Of a stretch of 28,427 nt of DNA, positions 5,253 to 28,427 are shown piece by piece. How positions within the stretch are numbered: position 1 is the first letter of the stretch; each line of letters opens with the position of its first letter. The stretch is from a virus, in the IMG/VR virus record IMGVR_UViG_3300020463_002005, positions 1 through 28,427 of that record; one strand, written 5' to 3'. A program made the translations under genes and the position numbers. A model generated the notes under the pieces. It ran no database searches. It saw nothing but the letters and a program-made list of their open reading frames with translations, and was not told the origin of the DNA.

Positions 5253-5345
5253 TTTACACAACTATTTATATATAGGTGTAAATAATTTTACACCAACTTA
5301 ATAATAGGTTTCAATACGAAAGTATAGAAATTATTTTTGTGTAAA
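5253..5345. promoter_or_regulatory. Putative operator set: TTTACAC/GTGTAAA repeats
   Basis: A perfect inverted repeat GGTGTAAA-TAAT-TTTACACC spans 5275-5294. Further half-sites are TTTACACA at 5253-5260 and TGTGTAAA at 5338-5345, two bases before the ATG of the plus-strand HTH gene. The sites sit between the divergent curli-like operon and the HTH gene and bracket the late promoter at 5263-5270. This suggests operators for a dimeric DNA-binding protein, plausibly the product of the adjacent HTH gene. The palindrome could also form an RNA hairpin, but its AT-rich stem and lack of a T-run argue against a terminator. Confidence 0.5.
5263..5270 (-). promoter_or_regulatory. T4-type late promoter for the curli-like operon
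   Basis: The minus strand reads TATAAATA, the exact T4 late consensus recognised by phage-modified RNA polymerase (gp55/gp33 type). It lies 70 bases upstream of csgF and is flanked by GTGTAAA/TTTACAC half-sites. A second, weaker GATAAATA lies at 5214-5221, about 21 bases from the ATG. Confidence 0.6.
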
Positions 5346-5346
5346 T

Positions 5347-5583
5347 ATGTATATGATAGATCGAACAACAGAACAAGATGCTCTATGGGACGCATTAGAT
5401 GATGCATTTCCTATAAATGAAATTAATAATACAAATTTAATGGATGAAGTTGCTGATTTAGAACGTAATCGTATTAGTAATGCTTTAAGTGTATATGGCG
5501 GAAATCAAACTAAGGCGGCTAGATCTTTGAAATTAGGTAGGGTCACTTTTATTGCTAAAGCAAAGAAATACGAGTTAGTTTAG
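5347..5583 (+). CDS. Small Fis/NtrC-type (HTH_8) DNA-binding protein, 78 aa
   Basis: This is the only gene on the plus strand. Residues about 38-76 match the C-terminal Fis-like helix-turn-helix of NtrC-family activators: LERNRISNALSVYGGNQTKA followed by ARSLKLGRVTFIAKAKKY. In NtrC proteins this region reads roughly LExxLIxxALxxxxGNxxxAAxxLGIxRxTL. The N-terminal 37 residues are acidic and contain no receiver or AAA+ domain, so it cannot act like a full sigma54 activator. It may be a Fis-like dimer. No Shine-Dalgarno is visible; ATGs at 5347 and 5353 are both possible. It diverges from the curli-like operon across a repeat-rich region and overlaps the gene at 5580 tail to tail by 4 bases. Control of the curli-like operon or of itself is my inference. 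Confidence 0.75.
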   Translation: MYMIDRTTEQDALWDALDDAFPINEINNTNLMDEVADLERNRISNALSVYGGNQTKAARSLKLGRVTFIAKAKKYELV

Positions 5584-6662: not shown

Positions 6663-7349
6663 CTAGTTAATTTTAGGAAAAAGCATGTCAGTGCAGAACT
6701 TATCAACGTCAGCTTCGTTAAGTCCTAAACTTTTCATTACTCGTGGAGTGTGCGGATTTTGTTGCTGGTTATGACAGTAATAGTTTTGGCTTGCAATAGT
6801 TAAATCTCTATCACCTTCGCCTGTGTATTGGCCAATGGAATCAAAGTACGTTTCAAGGTTGTCTAGCGCCAGTTGAATAATAACAGTTGCTTCTTGTTCC
6901 TTTACATTGCTTGCCGCAATCATACTTGGAGTAAAGATGTTAGTTGCCCACTCGGGTAACTCACGCTTTTTTTCTGGCACAAAGTCTTGTACTGCACTCT
7001 GATACCACTGAACCATAGGATGATCTTCTCCGCCTGAACTAGCAGAAAAATCATGGAAAGCACCAGTCATTTTGGACTTTCCTGCAATAACGTCAAATCC
7101 GTAAATAGGTCCGTTATTGTTAAGTTGTGGAAAAACACATACATGCATCATCCACAAACCTTTGGAATCTCTTGCGTCAACTACATCAATATGAGCTCTA
7201 CGAACATGTTCATTTTCCCATACTCTGTTAATCCAACCCCCGTCGGACTGATTAAAATGTTCCATTCCTGGTTCATTTATTTCAGTGCCGCGGGCATCGA
7301 ATAATTGAATGATATCTTTTTGACAGTCGACGAGTTGATCCCAGATCAC
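6663..7349 (-). CDS. pcyX: Ferredoxin-dependent bilin reductase, PcyX-like, 228 aa
   Basis: Family members reduce biliverdin IXalpha with electrons from ferredoxin to give phycobilins. Family blocks are MMHVCVFPQLNNNGPIYGFD, AGKSKMTGAFHDFS, and the C-terminal NYYCHNQQQNPHTPRVMKSL with FCTDMLFPKI. His69 and Asp86 have the same 17-residue spacing as the catalytic His88/Asp105 pair of PcyA. At the offset of PcyA Glu76, which is needed for 18-vinyl reduction, there is Val57 flanked by Asp55 and Asp58. That fits PcyX, a phage PcyA relative reported to make phycoerythrobilin. The product (PEB or another bilin) cannot be settled from sequence. The start is GTG at 7349 with AAGGAG six bases upstream, 20 bases after the heme oxygenase stop, so the two form a bicistron. 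Confidence 0.85.
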   Translation of the reverse strand: MIWDQLVDCQKDIIQLFDARGTEINEPGMEHFNQSDGGWINRVWENEHVRRAHIDVVDARDSKGLWMMHVCVFPQLNNNGPIYGFDVIAGKSKMTGAFHDFSASSGGEDHPMVQWYQSAVQDFVPEKKRELPEWATNIFTPSMIAASNVKEQEATVIIQLALDNLETYFDSIGQYTGEGDRDLTIASQNYYCHNQQQNPHTPRVMKSLGLNEADVDKFCTDMLFPKIN

Positions 7350-7369
7350 TTTACTCTCCTTACTTTACT

Positions 7370-7957
7370 TTAGTAGGTAAGTGCGTTTAGTTCTTCGAAA
7401 ATCTTAGTTGAGAATTCAAAAGCCTTATTTGCTTCGTCAGCCATACTATCTTTAGTACGCTTACGAATTAAGTTTTTCATTTCATCTACAGAATGTGACA
7501 TATCAGCAAACTGATACATTTTACCTGATCCAGGAACTTTGTTCTTGATCATTTGTCCGCCACTTAGATCGCCCATGTGTCTTACATAAACGTGTGCAAA
7601 TAACTTGTCTTTATCATGCTGACAGTTTTTAACAATGTGACTTCTGTATGCTTCTGCTGAAGGTACAACTTGTGGTGGATTTTCTTCTGTTCCACCTAGT
7701 TCTGTGTAATCAGCCCAAATATCATCAGCCTGTGTTAACCCATCTAATGGTAGGTCATCATCTGGCATGCTTAGATCTTCTGGACCGAAACAACCCATGC
7801 TTAGTGCAACATCTTCTAGGATGTCATATACTAACCACAGGTTGTATAAGTATGTTTTGTATTTTACTTCGCTCATGTTTCCAGACATCATTTCTTGTGC
7901 GAATTCTTGACGTTCTGCGTTCTGATGAGCGGCTTGTGTTAGTGATGCTAAACTCAT
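7370..7957 (-). CDS. hemO: Heme oxygenase, biliverdin-forming, 195 aa
   Basis: It opens heme to biliverdin IXalpha, CO and Fe2+ using O2 and reduced ferredoxin. The heme-ligand His is His11 in LTQAAHQNAER. The distal helix, which packs over heme and binds O2, is at residues 127-137 (HMGDLSGGQMI). Both are diagnostic for the HO1/HemO family, and the length is normal for a bacterial or phage enzyme (about 190-240). AAGGAG lies seven bases before the ATG. A perfect late promoter sits 44 bases upstream, just after the clpS stop. With the bilin reductase 20 bases downstream it forms a heme to biliverdin to phycobilin cassette. Iron release from heme is another possible benefit. The symbol could equally be ho1. 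Confidence 0.93.
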   Translation of the reverse strand: MSLASLTQAAHQNAERQEFAQEMMSGNMSEVKYKTYLYNLWLVYDILEDVALSMGCFGPEDLSMPDDDLPLDGLTQADDIWADYTELGGTEENPPQVVPSAEAYRSHIVKNCQHDKDKLFAHVYVRHMGDLSGGQMIKNKVPGSGKMYQFADMSHSVDEMKNLIRKRTKDSMADEANKAFEFSTKIFEELNALTY

Positions 7958-8000: not shown

Positions 8001-8008
8001 TATTTATA
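8001..8008 (-). promoter_or_regulatory. T4-type late promoter for hemO-pcyX
   Basis: The minus strand reads TATAAATA, an exact match to the T4 late consensus, directly abutting the clpS TAG stop and 44 bases upstream of the heme oxygenase ATG. It predicts late expression of the bilin pair, separate from clpS. Confidence 0.6.
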
Positions 8009-8320
8009 CTATTCTTTTTCAATTGCCACCTGTAATGGATAGCCGTGTTCCCTTGAAATTTTAGTACATTCTACGGCTTTTTGTTCAGCAATTTCGTATG
8101 TGTATAGTCCAACAACTGCTGAGCCGTTCTCATGTATTTTCATGGTTAGTTCTTTTGCAGTCTGTTGCGAATGTCTAAAGATATCTACTAGTAAGTCAAC
8201 AACAAAATCCATAGGAGTTTCGTTGTCGTTAGCAAAGATTACTTTGTATTTGCCCGGATCTTGGACAACTTCTTTAATCTTTTCTTTTACATTAATTTCT
8301 GTTTCTAGTTCTACGCTCAT
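8009..8320 (-). CDS. clpS: ClpS adaptor, 103 aa
   Basis: ClpS delivers N-degron substrates to ClpAP (ClpA/ClpC) and modulates the protease. After a 25-residue N-terminal extension, the core shows family motifs in order: YKVIFANDNETPMDFVVDLL, the MKIHENG segment, AVVGLYTYEIAEQKAVE, and EHGYPLQVAIE. Pocket residues that hold the N-terminal amino acid (Asn and Asp of NDxxTPM, the Met, and the His of MKIH) are all retained, so substrate binding is likely intact. AAGGA lies eight bases before the ATG, with a GC-rich hairpin further upstream (8339-8360). It lies between hsp20 and the hemO late promoter. Phage ClpS would presumably redirect the host protease. Confidence 0.92.
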   Translation of the reverse strand: MSVELETEINVKEKIKEVVQDPGKYKVIFANDNETPMDFVVDLLVDIFRHSQQTAKELTMKIHENGSAVVGLYTYEIAEQKAVECTKISREHGYPLQVAIEKE

Positions 8321-8338
8321 ATCATCTTTCCTTGTTTC

Positions 8339-8360
8339 GGGGGAGGTATTGCACTCCCCC
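8339..8360 (-). other. Intercistronic GC-rich hairpin before clpS
   Basis: GGGGGAG (8354-8360 on the minus strand) pairs with CTCCCCC (8339-8345) around an 8-base loop. It sits between the hsp20 stop and the clpS Shine-Dalgarno. No T-run follows, so it looks like an mRNA-stabilising or processing element, not an intrinsic terminator. Confidence 0.5.
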
Positions 8361-8368
8361 TAGACTGT

Positions 8369-8827
8369 TTACTTGCTTTCGCCGTCAATAGTAAGACCTT
8401 CGTTGATCTTAATTGTTTTAGGCTTTAACGCCTCTGGCAATTCACGTACTAAGTGAATATTAAGCATACCTAGTTCAAGGTTTGCCTCTTTCACATTCAC
8501 ATGATCTGCAAGTGTAAACTCCCTACGGAATGAACGTCCGCCAATACCTTTGTGTAGGTAATTGACATCTTCATCTCCTTTAGGGGCAGTTCCTTCAATC
8601 TTTAATGTATCACCATCTTTAGTAATATTAAGATTGTCCATACCAAAGCCAGCAACTGCGACTGAGATCATATACTCGTCATCGTTGATTTGTGCTATGT
8701 TGTATGGTGGATAACCATTTCCGTTAGGGCTATTTGCAAAACCTCTTTCAAGTTCATTAAATAGTCTATCAAAGCCAATTGTTGCTCTGTGGAAGTGTGG
8801 TAGGTCTAGAGTTGTTAGTCTTGTCAT
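8369..8827 (-). CDS. hsp20: Small heat-shock protein (Hsp20/IbpA-like), 152 aa
   Basis: An ATP-independent holdase chaperone. The alpha-crystallin domain occupies about residues 40-135: NIAQINDDEYMISVAVAGFG, the turn GDTLKIEGTAP, GIGGRSFRREFTLADHVNV, and ELGMLNIHLVRELPE. The last is the GxLxI/V motif near the domain end. The C-terminal ALKPKTIKIN matches the IbpA-type tail carrying the I-x-I motif for oligomerisation. The N-terminal DLPHFHRATIGFDRLFNELE also resembles IbpA. AAGGAG lies close before the ATG. Hsp20 genes are common in T4-like marine phages. The gene precedes clpS in the same direction, giving a chaperone-adaptor pair. Confidence 0.93.
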   Translation of the reverse strand: MTRLTTLDLPHFHRATIGFDRLFNELERGFANSPNGNGYPPYNIAQINDDEYMISVAVAGFGMDNLNITKDGDTLKIEGTAPKGDEDVNYLHKGIGGRSFRREFTLADHVNVKEANLELGMLNIHLVRELPEALKPKTIKINEGLTIDGESK

Positions 8828-8921: not shown

Positions 8922-10052
8922 ATCTGACGCATAAACACCGTTAAATTGTTGGGTACAACGTACAAATGTGGTGCATCGCATAAGGTGCTTTAGCCTTAAT
9001 GCGCCTGCATATGTGCAAGTACTACGCAATCCGCCTAGTAAATCCTGCACTGTAGCCGCTACATCGCCCCTATAAGGAACAAGTACTTCGCGGCCTTCTG
9101 ATGAACGATAGTCTTTTAGTCCACCAAAATGCTTTTCGTTTGCGGCATTACTACTCATACCGTAGAATTGCACAAACTTCTTTTCTTCTATAACTGATAC
9201 ATGATCTCCGTTATCATGTACGTCTACTTCATCAGTCTTAAAATACTTTGGAATTATCTCACCGCCGCCTTGATCATGCCCAGCAAGCATACCACCAAGC
9301 ATAACAAAATCTGCTCCACCTGCAAAGGCCTTAGCGACATCACCAGGGCAAGTACACCCACCGTCAGCAATAACGTGACCGCCAAGTCCGTGGGCGGCGT
9401 CTGCACATTCGATGACTGCCGATAGTTGCGGATATCCAACACCAGTTTGAATCCTAGTAGTGCAAACAGACCCGGGACCAATGCCCACTTTAACAATATC
9501 AGCTCCACTTAAAATTAACTCCTCTGTCATTTCGCCAGTAACTACATTCCCTGCAATAATAACAACGTGGGGATACTGACTTCTAAATTCTTTTACAAAC
9601 TGTGCAAATCGTTCTGAGTAACCATTTGCTACATCAATACAAACATACTTTAGTTTGCTACCTGTTTGTTCATATACATCTCTAAACTTTGCATGATCTC
9701 TATCTGTAATGCCAATGCTCATAGCAACAAATTCTGTCCTTGCTGGATCATGCGATCTATCATCTTGATCAAAGTAACCTACAAGTTCGTTAACACTATA
9801 AGTTTTAACTAAACAAGTAAAGATACCTCCAGTAGCAAGTACATCAGCCATTTCAAATGTACCAACACCATCCATGTTACTTGCCATAATAGGCACACCA
9901 CGATAATGTCTATAATCTGTAGTTTCGCCTTTGTAATTACGAAACGTAAATCCTCGTTCTAGATCTACTTCTTTACGACTGCCTAGTGTACTACGTTTCG
10001 GACGGATAAGAACGTCCTTGTAGTCTAATTTAATATCTTCTTCAATTCGCAT
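8913..10052 (-). CDS. guaC: GMP reductase, 379 aa
   Basis: It converts GMP to IMP with NADPH, moving guanine nucleotides toward the adenine branch. It follows E. coli GuaC closely: [20 protein letters not shown] at the N-terminus, [33 protein letters not shown], and [14 protein letters not shown] with catalytic Cys197 in the IMPDH/GMPR loop. Then come [29 protein letters not shown] and FYGMSS. It has no CBS domains, which separates it from IMP dehydrogenase. ATG 10052 is chosen because it matches GuaC and has GGAG nine bases upstream, although the frame is open to 10082. It is about 30 residues longer than E. coli GuaC, partly from an insertion near [14 protein letters not shown]. It overlaps the 2OG oxygenase gene by 11 bases. 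Confidence 0.92.
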
Positions 10053-18054: not shown

Positions 18055-18077
18055 TAAAAAAAGACCCTTAGGGTCTT
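18055..18077 (-). terminator. Intrinsic terminator of the tmRNA gene
   Basis: AAGACCC pairs with GGGTCTT over a TAA loop (18061-18077), and the minus strand continues into a run of T. A textbook rho-independent terminator right after the tmRNA coding piece. Confidence 0.85.
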
Positions 18078-18409
18078 AAAGTGCGACTTTTCTGTTGCTA
18101 GGTAAGTCGCCAACCCCGAGTGATTACGCCGCTAGGGCAAAATCCTCATTGACAGCGAAGTCATTAAGTGCACCGAAGTTCACGAAAGTAAATTCGCCGT
18201 TGTTTACAGTTGCTTTTGCATTTGTAAAGTTTCTTCGCGTTAACCGAGCTTAGATCCGGATAACTCCACAACATCTATTAACTACCAGTCGATCCTATTT
18301 CAGGCCCATCATAAGCACACTAGATAGTGTGTGCTTAATGTGTTTATGGTGGACCTGCCCGGTACCGCCCCGGGGTCCTGCATAGCGTTTGAATTGCTTC
18401 AACGTTATG
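18078..18409 (-). ncRNA. ssrA: tmRNA, circularly permuted two-piece type
   Basis: The acceptor piece comes first. It starts with a hairpin capped by a GCAA tetraloop (from 18409), then a T-arm (CCCGG, 7-base loop, CCGGG), then CAGGTCC and encoded ACCA ending at 18347. A 39-base intervening segment (18308-18346) with a 9-pair stem follows. The coding piece begins GGGCCTG at 18307. GGGCCTG pairs with CAGGTCC over seven pairs with G3-U70, the alanyl-tRNA synthetase identity element. GGATCGACTGG is the usual tmRNA D-region. The tag frame runs to TAA at 18124-18126 and ends NEDFALAA, the typical ClpXP/ClpAP degron ending. The resume codon is probably GTA (18207) or GCA (18213), giving about 27-29 codons. 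A helix at 18083-18110 closes the 3' end. Permuted tmRNAs are known from alphaproteobacteria and marine picocyanobacteria. Confidence 0.92.
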
Positions 18410-18415
18410 TTTATA

Positions 18416-18444
18416 TTTATACACTCTTTTTATATAGATGTCAA
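18416..18444 (-). promoter_or_regulatory. Consensus sigma70 promoter of the tmRNA gene
   Basis: TTGACA (18439-18444), a 17-base spacer and TATAAA (18416-18421) on the minus strand. The expected start, about 7 bases on, coincides with the first base of the acceptor-piece hairpin (18409). It overlaps the 3' end of the DUF3307 gene. Confidence 0.85.
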
Positions 18445-18801
18445 GATAAGAACGTAAGAAAGATAACAAGTATAGTGTAAAGTTTGATCTATTGCCTGTG
18501 TAATCCAATATGCTTTTTGGTCTGTTGTCCATTTGTATCTTTTTATTATTCTTGTTTTAACATAATCAATAATAAAATGGAGTACGTAATCTAACAATGC
18601 TATTGAGATTGACATTAGAAAATTATTAGTTATTAATGCTATTACAACAAAGGTAAGTCCTGCATGATCGCCTGCATGGATATATCCCTTAAGGCTCTTA
18701 AGGTCGCTTTTATCTCCTGGAGTTTTTCTTAAAGATTGTATTGCCAAGTCGGCAATGGCGTGTTTAACAAGTAGTCCATATAGAATTATCAAACCTTCCA
18801 T
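18430..18801 (-). CDS. DUF3307-family membrane protein, 123 aa
   Basis: The DUF3307 pattern is visible: LLVKHAIADLAIQ at the N-terminus, GYIHAGDHAGLTFVVIALIT, LLDYVLHFIIDYVKTRI, and YWITQAIDQTLHYTCYLS near the end. Conserved His and Asp residues (HAGDHAG, HFIIDY, DQTLHY) lie at membrane-helix edges, which hints at metal or substrate binding. Four hydrophobic segments span about residues 4-18, 48-62, 64-80 and 103-121. Members occur in bacteria and phages with no assigned activity. AAGGA lies 11 bases before the ATG. It follows the cold-shock gene by 15 bases, and its end carries the tmRNA promoter. Confidence 0.78.
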   Translation of the reverse strand: MEGLIILYGLLVKHAIADLAIQSLRKTPGDKSDLKSLKGYIHAGDHAGLTFVVIALITNNFLMSISIALLDYVLHFIIDYVKTRIIKRYKWTTDQKAYWITQAIDQTLHYTCYLSYVLILTSI

Positions 18802-26125: not shown

Positions 26126-26653
26126 CTAGTGTGTGTTACCAAACGGTCCATAATGTCTGTCACACATTGTAACAAATACCACAAACAATGGGTCGTTCTT
26201 CTGTTCAGGATCTATGCCCTGTTGGTCTATCCATTTGTCTTGTAATTCGAAAGCGTCTATTTCTAATGCTTGTTTACATTCAGCACGTTCGTATTCTCCA
26301 TCGTAATATTGTACAAAGTGTACCAATTCATGTAGCAAGACTACTTCAAAGAAATGATCTTCAACCATATATTCTGTAACCTTATTAGATACTACAATTA
26401 GATTTTGATCATGATCATAGTAACCTGCTATGTTACAATCATCGTGTGATTCTGCATCAGGATATATTGTTTCACATACTGTTTGTGGGTCTTGACGTAT
26501 TACTTGCGGATAAGGATCTCCGTAATATTCGAATCTACTATTATCAACTATCCATTGCACCATAGACTCTACTGTATGGTTGCCATGTGTTGCATTTACA
26601 GGATGACAAAATCCTAATGGTAACAATAATGTTATTAAAAAAATTCTATACAT
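26126..26653 (-). CDS. Secreted zinc metalloprotease-like protein, 175 aa
   Basis: ATG 26653 is chosen (GGAAG at proper spacing; 8-base overlap with the hemC stop); ATG 26659 adds two residues. A signal peptide (MYRIFLITLLLPLGFCHPVN, cleaved near NA-TH) precedes the catalytic segment FFEVVLLHELVHFVQYYDGE. His108-Glu109-x-x-His112 would bind zinc, and a Glu in ERAECKQALEIDAF can be the third ligand, as in gluzincins. Cys60 and Cys73 may pair. The short length and export point to periplasmic action. Substrate unknown. It lies between hemC and the nuclease gene and may be co-transcribed with the hem genes. Confidence 0.75.
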   Translation of the reverse strand: MYRIFLITLLLPLGFCHPVNATHGNHTVESMVQWIVDNSRFEYYGDPYPQVIRQDPQTVCETIYPDAESHDDCNIAGYYDHDQNLIVVSNKVTEYMVEDHFFEVVLLHELVHFVQYYDGEYERAECKQALEIDAFELQDKWIDQQGIDPEQKNDPLFVVFVTMCDRHYGPFGNTH

Positions 26654-27398
26654 GTTCATCTTCCGTATAATAAACTGCTTCTAGCTTTATAGGATTACTG
26701 CCTGTTGCATGACCTGCAACTCTAGTATGACAATCTCCTGCTATGCCTTTGAGTAATGCTCTTTCTAATTTTGCTTGAGCATATGTTAATTTGTGGTTTA
26801 CTTTACTTACAATATCATTTGTTTTTGTATCGCCTTTGCGAGTCTGTAAAGCAATTATACCTTGTCCAACTGCTGGAACAATAGGTAATCTTGTGTATTC
26901 TCTTTTAATACCTAATGCATCTAATCCTGCTTCAGCTAGGACAATAGCATCATATTCTCCTGCATCTAATTTTGCAAGCCTAGTATCTATGTTACCTCTT
27001 ATAGGTTTTATTTGCACATGATGGTTTTCATATAGTTGTTCTAATTGTGCTTTACGTCTAGGACTACTTGTGCCAATAATAAAATTCTCTGATACTTTTC
27101 CTATTAGGACATCATAAGGCCTTGCACGTTCTAACACTGCACAAATATGTAAGTCTGGGTGTTCAATATCGCCGGGCATATCTTTCAAACTATGTACTGC
27201 AACATCTACAATACCTTCTGCTAATGCATATTCAATAGCATTGCAAAATACACCTTTGCCTCCAATCTCATGTATAGGAGTGTCAGGATGTAAGTCTCCA
27301 TCAGTTTTTATTATTTCTATTTCTCCTACACCTAATGCATCGATTGCTTTTTGAGCATATGCTAAGGCTAACTTACTACCACGAACACCTATTTTCAT
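26646..27398 (-). CDS. hemC: Porphobilinogen deaminase (hydroxymethylbilane synthase), 250 aa
   Basis: It joins four porphobilinogens into hydroxymethylbilane, the linear precursor of heme. Motifs are MKIGVRGSKLALAYAQK, GGKGVFCNAIEYAL, DVAVHSLKDMP with catalytic Asp73, GTSSPRRKAQL with Arg114/Arg115, RGNIDTRLAKLDAGEYDAIV, and AGDCHTRVAG with Cys223. That Cys is the dipyrromethane-cofactor attachment (Cys242 in E. coli). All key residues are kept. The protein is about 60 residues shorter than E. coli HemC (313). The loss is in the C-terminal domain 3, which is cut to a short strand set ending TEDEHV. Activity is plausible but not assured. It follows hemF by one base. Confidence 0.93.
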   Translation of the reverse strand: MKIGVRGSKLALAYAQKAIDALGVGEIEIIKTDGDLHPDTPIHEIGGKGVFCNAIEYALAEGIVDVAVHSLKDMPGDIEHPDLHICAVLERARPYDVLIGKVSENFIIGTSSPRRKAQLEQLYENHHVQIKPIRGNIDTRLAKLDAGEYDAIVLAEAGLDALGIKREYTRLPIVPAVGQGIIALQTRKGDTKTNDIVSKVNHKLTYAQAKLERALLKGIAGDCHTRVAGHATGSNPIKLEAVYYTEDEHV

Positions 27399-27399
27399 T

Positions 27400-28191
27400 T
27401 TAATTCCATTTTACTAAAGGTGGCAATGACATTAATATAGCATCCATATTGCCTCCTGTTTTAAATCCAAACTTAGTTCCTCTATCGTACATTAGATTAA
27501 ATTCTACGTACCTTCCTCTTTTTACTAATTGGGCTTCTTTATCTTCATTAGTATAGTCTAAGTCCATTGTTGCATATACTGTAGACTCTAATAAATCTAT
27601 AAACTTTGTGCCAACATGCTTTACAAAATCAAAACTCATATCCTTAGGATTATGATACTCAAAAAACAATCCTCCTACACCTCTTGTTTCTTTTCTATGT
27701 GGCAAATAAAAGTATTCATCGCATGCCTTACTAAACTTAGGATAATATGTTTTATCATATTTGTCACACATCTTTTTTAGCTCTGCGTGATAAGACTCTT
27801 TATCAAAAGGCAAGCAAGGAGTAAAATCCATACCTCCGCCAAACCATTCTATTCCTGTTTTTAAATATCTTGTGTTAAAATGCATAGCAGGAACTTTAGG
27901 ATTGCAAGGGTGTAATACAACACTTATTCCTGTTGCTTGATAGTTTGCATTATCCTCTGTTCCTGGAATTTCTTTTGCAAATTTAGGATCAAACTCTCCA
28001 GTTACTTTACTAAAATTTACTGTGCCCTTTTCAAATACATTACCGTATATTGTTCTATGTGATTGTTCCCAACCTTCTCTTGTCGGAGAAGTATGCTCTG
28101 TCATTGGGCCGTCTAAGTTTTCAATTGTATTGCAGATTTCAGACTGTAACTCTTTAAACCATTCACTAGATGTATCGAATAAACTTTTCAT
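27400..28191 (-). CDS. hemF: Oxygen-dependent coproporphyrinogen III oxidase, 263 aa
   Basis: It turns coproporphyrinogen III into protoporphyrinogen IX with O2. Strong family blocks are KGTVNFSKVTGEF, TGISVVLHPCNPKVPAMHFN with conserved His104, WFGGGMDFTPC, YPKFSKACDEYFYLPHRKET, RGVGGLFFEY, and KRGRYVEFNLMYDRGTKFGF then GGNMDAILMSLPPLVKW. ATG 28191 shares ATGA with the upstream stop; the longer frame to 28251 is rejected. It ends right after PPLVKW, lacking the usual C-terminal tail of roughly 25-30 residues, so it is shorter than E. coli HemF (299). With hemC it forms a phage heme-synthesis pair. The intermediate steps (hemD, hemE) are not in the window. Confidence 0.93.
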   Translation of the reverse strand: MKSLFDTSSEWFKELQSEICNTIENLDGPMTEHTSPTREGWEQSHRTIYGNVFEKGTVNFSKVTGEFDPKFAKEIPGTEDNANYQATGISVVLHPCNPKVPAMHFNTRYLKTGIEWFGGGMDFTPCLPFDKESYHAELKKMCDKYDKTYYPKFSKACDEYFYLPHRKETRGVGGLFFEYHNPKDMSFDFVKHVGTKFIDLLESTVYATMDLDYTNEDKEAQLVKRGRYVEFNLMYDRGTKFGFKTGGNMDAILMSLPPLVKWN

Positions 28192-28427
28192 CCAACCATC
28201 CAATTGTAAACTGCTCGCATAGCAAGTAACATATACATCAACTCCATACATGCTCTTGGAATGTCTTTATCTTTTATCGCAAAGTAGATCCACATAGAAC
28301 AACTTATACAAGCCATTCCCCAACCTATTGCTTGTGTATCTGTGTTAGCGTCTGATAATATATAAGCGGCTAGTATGGCTATCATAAAACCTAACCATCT
28401 GCCTTTATCTAATTTTTGATAGAATCT
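28188..28427 (-). CDS. Small membrane protein, 5' end outside window
   Basis: The frame is open from the right edge (residues RFYQKLDKGRWLGF precede the first internal ATG at 28385), so the gene probably starts outside the window. It has two or three membrane segments: LGFMIAILAAYILSD, IGWGMACISCSMWIYFAI, and a C-terminal ACMELMYMLLAMRAVYNWM. The KDKDIPRACMELMYMLLAMR stretch is typical of phage small membrane proteins that I have seen without function. It overlaps hemF in an ATGA junction, so it is coupled with the hem genes. Function unknown. Confidence 0.6.
   Translation of the reverse strand, partial: RFYQKLDKGRWLGFMIAILAAYILSDANTDTQAIGWGMACISCSMWIYFAIKDKDIPRACMELMYMLLAMRAVYNWMVG

Follow-up and report, generated by a model that had tools for sequence, protein, structure and literature searches.

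The stretch of DNA analyzed here (the window), a 28,427-base IMG/VR virus record, carries on its minus strand a circularly permuted, two-piece tmRNA gene of the alphaproteobacterial type, which is probably a working phage gene, predicted to be transcribed early and late, processed into two pieces, served by the host AlaRS and SmpB, and to encode a 31-residue degradation tag. The comparison with Rfam profiles revealed a match of minus-strand positions 18461-18080 to the full model (1-355) of alpha_tmRNA (RF01849; 97 bits against a cut-off of 50, E 1.5e-25), along with a match at 18408-18124 to tmRNA_permuted (RF04321; 84.5 bits against a cut-off of 47, E 4.5e-15). In line with membership of the latter family, the acceptor piece precedes the coding piece within one predicted transcript, with an intervening segment between them. 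A preliminary description had proposed a permuted two-piece tmRNA at this locus and named a covariance-model search as its check; both the alpha and the permuted families supported the proposal, and the acceptor piece, intervening loop, coding piece, G3-U70, CCA and -ALAA tag were each located as described (Table 1). The positions given there were correct, and the strand, which had been left unstated, is now assigned as minus.

Table 1. Features of the tmRNA locus and associated genes in the window
Feature	Positions	Strand	Basis or details
DUF3307 membrane-protein gene, directly upstream of tmRNA	18430..18801	-	PF11750, phrog_2470, relatives, synteny
Promoter	18414..18444	-	TTGACA 18444-18439, 17-base spacer, TATAAA 18421-18416 within TATAAATA 18421-18414
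Acceptor piece	18347..18409	-	RF04321 start 18408, fold
First helix (acceptor piece)	18409-18381	-	
T arm (acceptor piece)	18373-18359	-	
Acceptor 3' strand and encoded CCA (acceptor piece)	18357-18347	-	
Intervening segment, presumably removed by processing	18308..18346	-	bounded by CCA and acceptor 5' strand
Hairpin in intervening segment	18337-18312	-	
Coding piece	18080..18307	-	RF01849 alignment reaching 18080, fold; also holds pre-tag segment and tag frame
Acceptor 5' strand GGGCCTG and D-loop (coding piece)	18307-18288	-	
Tag reading frame, 31 codons and TAA	18124..18219	-	AKATVNNGEFTFVNFGALNDFAVNEDFALAA; resume codon GCA aligned to alpha_tmRNA
3' stem (coding piece)	18109-18084	-	
Intrinsic terminator	18056..18077	-	AAGACCCTAAGGGTCTT then T run; hairpin 18077-18061; terminator scan
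Phage ClpS-type protease adaptor gene, 10 kb from tmRNA	8009..8320	-	PF02617, E 1.6e-27

The predicted fold agrees with this assignment, as positions 18409-18060 exhibit a folding energy of -118.1 kcal/mol (z -5.97 against dinucleotide shuffles) and 18357-18351 pair fully with 18307-18301 in an acceptor stem bearing G3.U70 and an encoded ACCA, the D-loop reading GAAATAGGATCGAC. The G3-U70 pair was kept in all 42 distinct phage acceptor/T-arm combinations, and the acceptor and T stems vary among phages by compensatory change. The window tmRNA nevertheless scores below the host genes with RF01849 (97 bits, where SAR11 reaches about 210-247). A BLASTN comparison of the locus with a phage collection that may lack close kin produced no matches, divergence being high, and ARAGORN did not report the tmRNA in the window, a false negative which indicates that the usual phage annotation could overlook this gene. 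In the precursor, the CCA and its flanking bases are able to lengthen the acceptor stem, a pairing that shows compensatory changes in phages and is weaker in hosts; a phage-specific helix lengthening this stem through the intervening segment is not claimed, as hosts have part of it. The intervening segments of Melnitz (L267, about 2080-2230) and of two further contigs (L026 and L090) extend to ~140 bases and contain a short ATG-started open frame, so that the discarded piece might be translated in these phages.

Two-piece tmRNAs of phages have a prior record. A 2022 count comprised 53 forms, 50 of them from marine or aquatic samples (PMC9004378), and a 2025 tmRNA database includes 79 phage sequences (PMC11915505). 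By scanning IMG/VR with one motif we obtained at least 120 matches, which suggests that such phage genes are common, and we found annotated permuted tmRNAs in Melnitz and Mosig and an unannotated one in HTVC008M (L396/KC465899.1, 145161-145370, plus strand, 90.6 bits, close to the gene of the late promoter transcription factor). With reports of such genes dating from 2022, the locus is less novel than the preliminary description implied: a permuted phage tmRNA is in itself already known, and that description did not notice the long tag, the exchange of cassettes or the early/late promoter.

The phage-borne nature of the locus was borne out by the phage-like genes of the contig, which most likely belongs to a T4-like marine phage of the pelagimyophage/Melnitz kind. 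Its ribonucleotide reductase is near those of Synechococcus phages and Pelagibacter phage Mosig, and its CsgG has its best matches in HTVC008M and Melnitz. The window further encodes an endolysin, a tail-fibre-like protein, a cold-shock protein, S21, a ferredoxin oxidoreductase family protein, a 2OG-Fe(II) oxygenase, heme oxygenase, ClpS, Hsp20, IMP dehydrogenase, porphobilinogen deaminase and coproporphyrinogen oxidase. The last two are adjacent (26646-28251, minus) and, together with the heme oxygenase and ferredoxin oxidoreductase family genes (6663-7957, minus), make up a set for making and opening heme. A 78-residue ORF (5347-5583, plus) without a PHROG match has a C-terminus resembling, by eye, a Fis-type helix-turn-helix. 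Around the tmRNA, the order NrdB-Grx-Csp-DUF3307-tmRNA is syntenic in the window's clade, and parts of this order recur in a wider set.

The preliminary description had also placed a near-perfect sigma70 promoter at the first helix and an own terminator behind the gene, and both are present. The TTGACA-N17-TATAAA at 18444-18416 on the minus strand is the sole exact instance in the window; its -35 end overlaps the DUF3307 gene at the gene's 3' end, and the first helix begins 7 bases beyond the -10, at 18409. The terminator scan found a hairpin followed by a T run. What had been overlooked is that the -10 TATAAA, behind its sigma70 -35 box, continues as the T4-type late motif TATAAATA. The late promoter of T4-like cyanophages is NATAAATA, and early promoters that overlap late ones have been described for these phages (PMC2984593). 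Counted as loci from pattern scans, which are not phylogenetically independent samples, TATAAATA lies upstream of the tmRNA in 58 of 100 phage loci vs 0 of 48 host loci. Among 97 distinct phage upstream regions, all 52 TTGA[CT]N/TATAAA promoters go on with TA and thus form TATAAATA, and a second group of phage promoters, with TTTAC[AT]/TATAAT, has no late motif at its -10. In HTVC008M and Mosig, NATAAATA is located 13-38 bases ahead of several structural genes, the TATAAATA counts in the tested stretches of these genomes favor the main coding strand by 10 to 0 and 8 to 0, and Mosig contains a putative late sigma gene. The window has three TATAAATA copies, all on the coding strand, a total not above chance. 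One copy upstream of the heme oxygenase gene (8001-8008, minus) and one upstream of the ORF preceding a CsgG-like gene (5263-5270, minus) fit late promoters. From these elements we infer that the tmRNA is transcribed both early and late in infection, and the conservation of the early/late promoter suggests that the phage needs its tmRNA through the whole infection.

The expectation that the tmRNA would inform on the host did not hold when the comparison with SAR11 ssrA was run, since it yielded a separate phage branch and no host identification. In trees of 156 and 59 sequences, the phage tmRNAs group together, apart from the sampled SAR11 and other alphaproteobacterial copies (FastTree support of 0.998 in the first tree and SH-aLRT of 97 in the second, from which four host-like exceptions were omitted). 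Both trees are unrooted and drawn with midpoint roots, so that phages and SAR11 as one side are neither shown nor rejected; a SAR11 origin of the phage tmRNA is not claimed, because an unrooted tree cannot place the phages on the SAR11 stem. The tmRNA of Melnitz, a phage of a gammaproteobacterial host (PMC9004378), falls inside the phage group. This position, in combination with the separation of phage from host copies, indicates that the window's tmRNA gene does not identify the host of the contig, and an alpha-type tmRNA on a viral contig should, with due caution, not be taken as a guide to one. The tree also bears on the reading that the gene was captured from a host and is kept by drift or recent transduction, without a role in infection. 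Mobile elements are commonly sited at tmRNA genes, and four contigs (L039, L069, L053 and L099) hold host-like copies in the first tree; the window copy, however, lies in the phage group apart from the sampled hosts and occupies a conserved phage locus, and its stems are maintained by compensatory change, which makes such a capture very improbable.

SmpB was not found in 23 phage records, including the whole genomes of Melnitz, HTVC008M and Mosig, and the SAR11 control (G001) has it. Its absence from the window means little, because the window is a 28 kb fragment, and the reported occurrence of tmRNA and SmpB genes in huge phages (PMC7162821) implies that SmpB absence is not a rule for all phages. 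Given that no SmpB was present in the phages searched, use of the host protein is proposed: most likely, the phage tmRNA relies on host SmpB in rescuing ribosomes, both early and late in infection, and marks the products with a degradation tag specific to the phage. Early on, host RNA polymerase would transcribe the tmRNA from the sigma70 -35/-10 pair, and the phage late-transcription machinery would later do so from TATAAATA. The precursor would be cleaved into acceptor and coding pieces, host AlaRS would charge the tmRNA via G3.U70, and host SmpB would bring it to stalled ribosomes, where translation would resume at GCA 18219 and add the 31-residue ALAA-ended tag, directing the product to host proteases. 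We infer this series, from transcription, processing and charging to host SmpB use, tagging and degradation, from sequence, and the rescue of ribosomes on cut mRNAs and a redirected tagging are roles compatible with the data. The lack of a phage SmpB would also suit a tmRNA acting mainly as a competitor, which would tie up host SmpB or AlaRS with its tRNA-like portion and dampen trans-translation in the host, the tag being of little weight; mycobacteriophage DS6A is reported to have a tRNA-like form that lacks a tag (PMC4131195), and tmRNA inhibition by a similar molecule has been reported as well (PMC11915505). Here, however, every tagging part is retained, ALAA closes the tag and the extended peptide appears to be under constraint as such, and we thus regard competition as the main role as quite unlikely.

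The window tag comprises 31 codons ending in ALAA, a length unremarked in the preliminary description. Host tags span 9-13 codons in 48 distinct genes (20 SAR11 and 28 other alphaproteobacteria), these being the best-scoring host loci, a selection that may favor ordinary forms, and the SAR11 matches to RF01849 listed extend over about 290-305 bases vs 382 in the window, which leaves little space for a long tag insert there. The long-tag family includes 23 phage loci with 15 distinct sequences of 29-31 residues, all of which share FV[DN]F[SG]...ED[FY]ALAA. Across these 15 sequences, pN/pS was 0.53 in the tag frame vs 1.22 and 1.23 out of frame, a moderate value drawn from few and related sequences, and in the 31-residue subset it fell to 0.35, with at least 1.12 in the other frames; only 2 of 300 column shuffles, a control that ignores phylogeny, reached a pN/pS as low as the tag's. 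RNAalifold detected no conserved RNA helix across the insert, the sole structure being a 4-bp hairpin at the 3' end of the tag, and RNA structure was therefore dropped as the reason for insert conservation. The frame-limited constraint and the lack of an insert-wide helix suggest that the conserved element is the peptide: the long tag appears constrained as a peptide rather than as an RNA helix.

The likeliest purpose we can suggest for this peptide is an additional contact with a protease or an adaptor, made by the conserved FV[DN]F...NED[FY] block and fitted to infected cells. The insert could instead confer another fate on rescued chains, such as phage-protein binding or stability, and not extend a degron. 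The block is conserved and moves between RNA backbones as a cassette, and the window tag starts with AKAT, so that the ANDN start kept in most sampled alphaproteobacterial tags was lost while the insert stayed. The C-terminal ALAA, the classic ClpX contact, is nonetheless invariant within the long-tag family, and we consider another fate unlikely. Concerning possible readers of a degradation tag, SspB was not found in eight SAR11 genomes or in the phages, and two other alphaproteobacteria have it. The phage ClpS, whose gene also occurs in nine other tmRNA-bearing phage records, is a possible partner in protein turnover with the tmRNA. The notion that it is supplied to hosts lacking one was dropped: although ClpS was missing from the first five SAR11 genomes, a broader sample showed it in 21 of 60. 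A jumbo-sized viral contig (L363, 342,607 bases) likewise combines a permuted tmRNA of the window's kind with a ClpS gene.

Beyond the main family, a second long-tag family (ANENFAPEAFTSLDMSMDSELLAA and kin) is unlike the first in sequence, and four contigs (L071, L031, L019 and L042) hold other unusual long tags, e.g., ANDNVAQPKFMKKRNTFARKVGFTKGMALAA, which is basic in nature. Comparing the halves of the tmRNAs separately revealed two mosaics. L350 and L051 share an FTSLDMSMD tag and 3' halves that are 89% alike, and the 5' half of L350 is closest to L036 (80%); L112, of the same tag type, resembles L350 by 57% in the 5' half and 75% in the 3' half, where L036 reaches only 31%. The 5' half of L013 is 79% like L110 and L036 and only 61-66% like the window, L354 and L143, to which its 3' half, with the same tag type, is closest (73-75% vs 64-66% for L110 and L036). 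These patterns indicate that tag cassettes and 3' halves were recombined between different 5' backbones, and an assembly error is unlikely because the two mosaics are separate and one is present in four contigs. NrdB, glutaredoxin, small ORFs and often Csp are located upstream of the tmRNA in equal order on both backbones, so that the locus looks like one old locus whose parts were swapped. L036 contains, on the plus strand, two permuted tmRNAs (8151-8446 and 9078-9439, at a distance of about 930 bases and flanking two tRNA genes) with the tags ANDNFASEDYALAA and ANENFALAA, a pair that would supply a substrate for recombination. A tentative and somewhat doubtful extension is that marine T4-like phages evolved exchangeable tmRNA tag cassettes, the long FV[DN]F...NED[FY]ALAA and FTSLDMSMD...LLAA tags being phage-made targeting signals whose products meet a fate unlike that of the short host tag. 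If phages do tune the trans-translation tag, it would be a readable trait of viral steering of protein turnover in abundant ocean bacteria, and the isolates Mosig, HTVC008M and Melnitz make an experimental test possible.

Among known systems, Melnitz (MZ577097), a phage of OM43 (Methylophilales; PMC9004378), is also a T4-like marine myophage with curli genes and an alpha-type permuted tmRNA in the same tree group. Its tag, ANDNYVPVDYALAA, has 14 codons vs 31 in the window, and its tmRNA, beside a glutamine riboswitch (RF01739), adjoins the late coactivator gene, whereas that of the window lies downstream of NrdB/DUF3307. The SAR11 myophages Mosig EXVC030M and HTVC008M also carry a permuted tmRNA, and Mosig resembles the window in having heme oxygenase, a phycocyanobilin:ferredoxin oxidoreductase and S21. 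In both phages, however, the tmRNA is near a late-transcription accessory gene and the long cassette is absent, the HTVC008M tag ANFNEYALAA comprising 10 codons vs 31. The ssrA of SAR11 and other alphaproteobacteria (RF01849) resembles the window's gene in gene order, two-piece form, acceptor and D-loop motifs and a short hydrophobic AA end, but differs in its 9-13-codon tags (48 sequences), its lack of a TATAAATA promoter and its separate tree branch. The overlapping promoters of RB49 and cyanomyoviruses (PMC2984593) likewise combine sigma70-type elements with the NATAAATA late motif at one gene; in the window, by contrast, the two promoters, their use predicted from sequence, share a single -10 and stand before the tmRNA.
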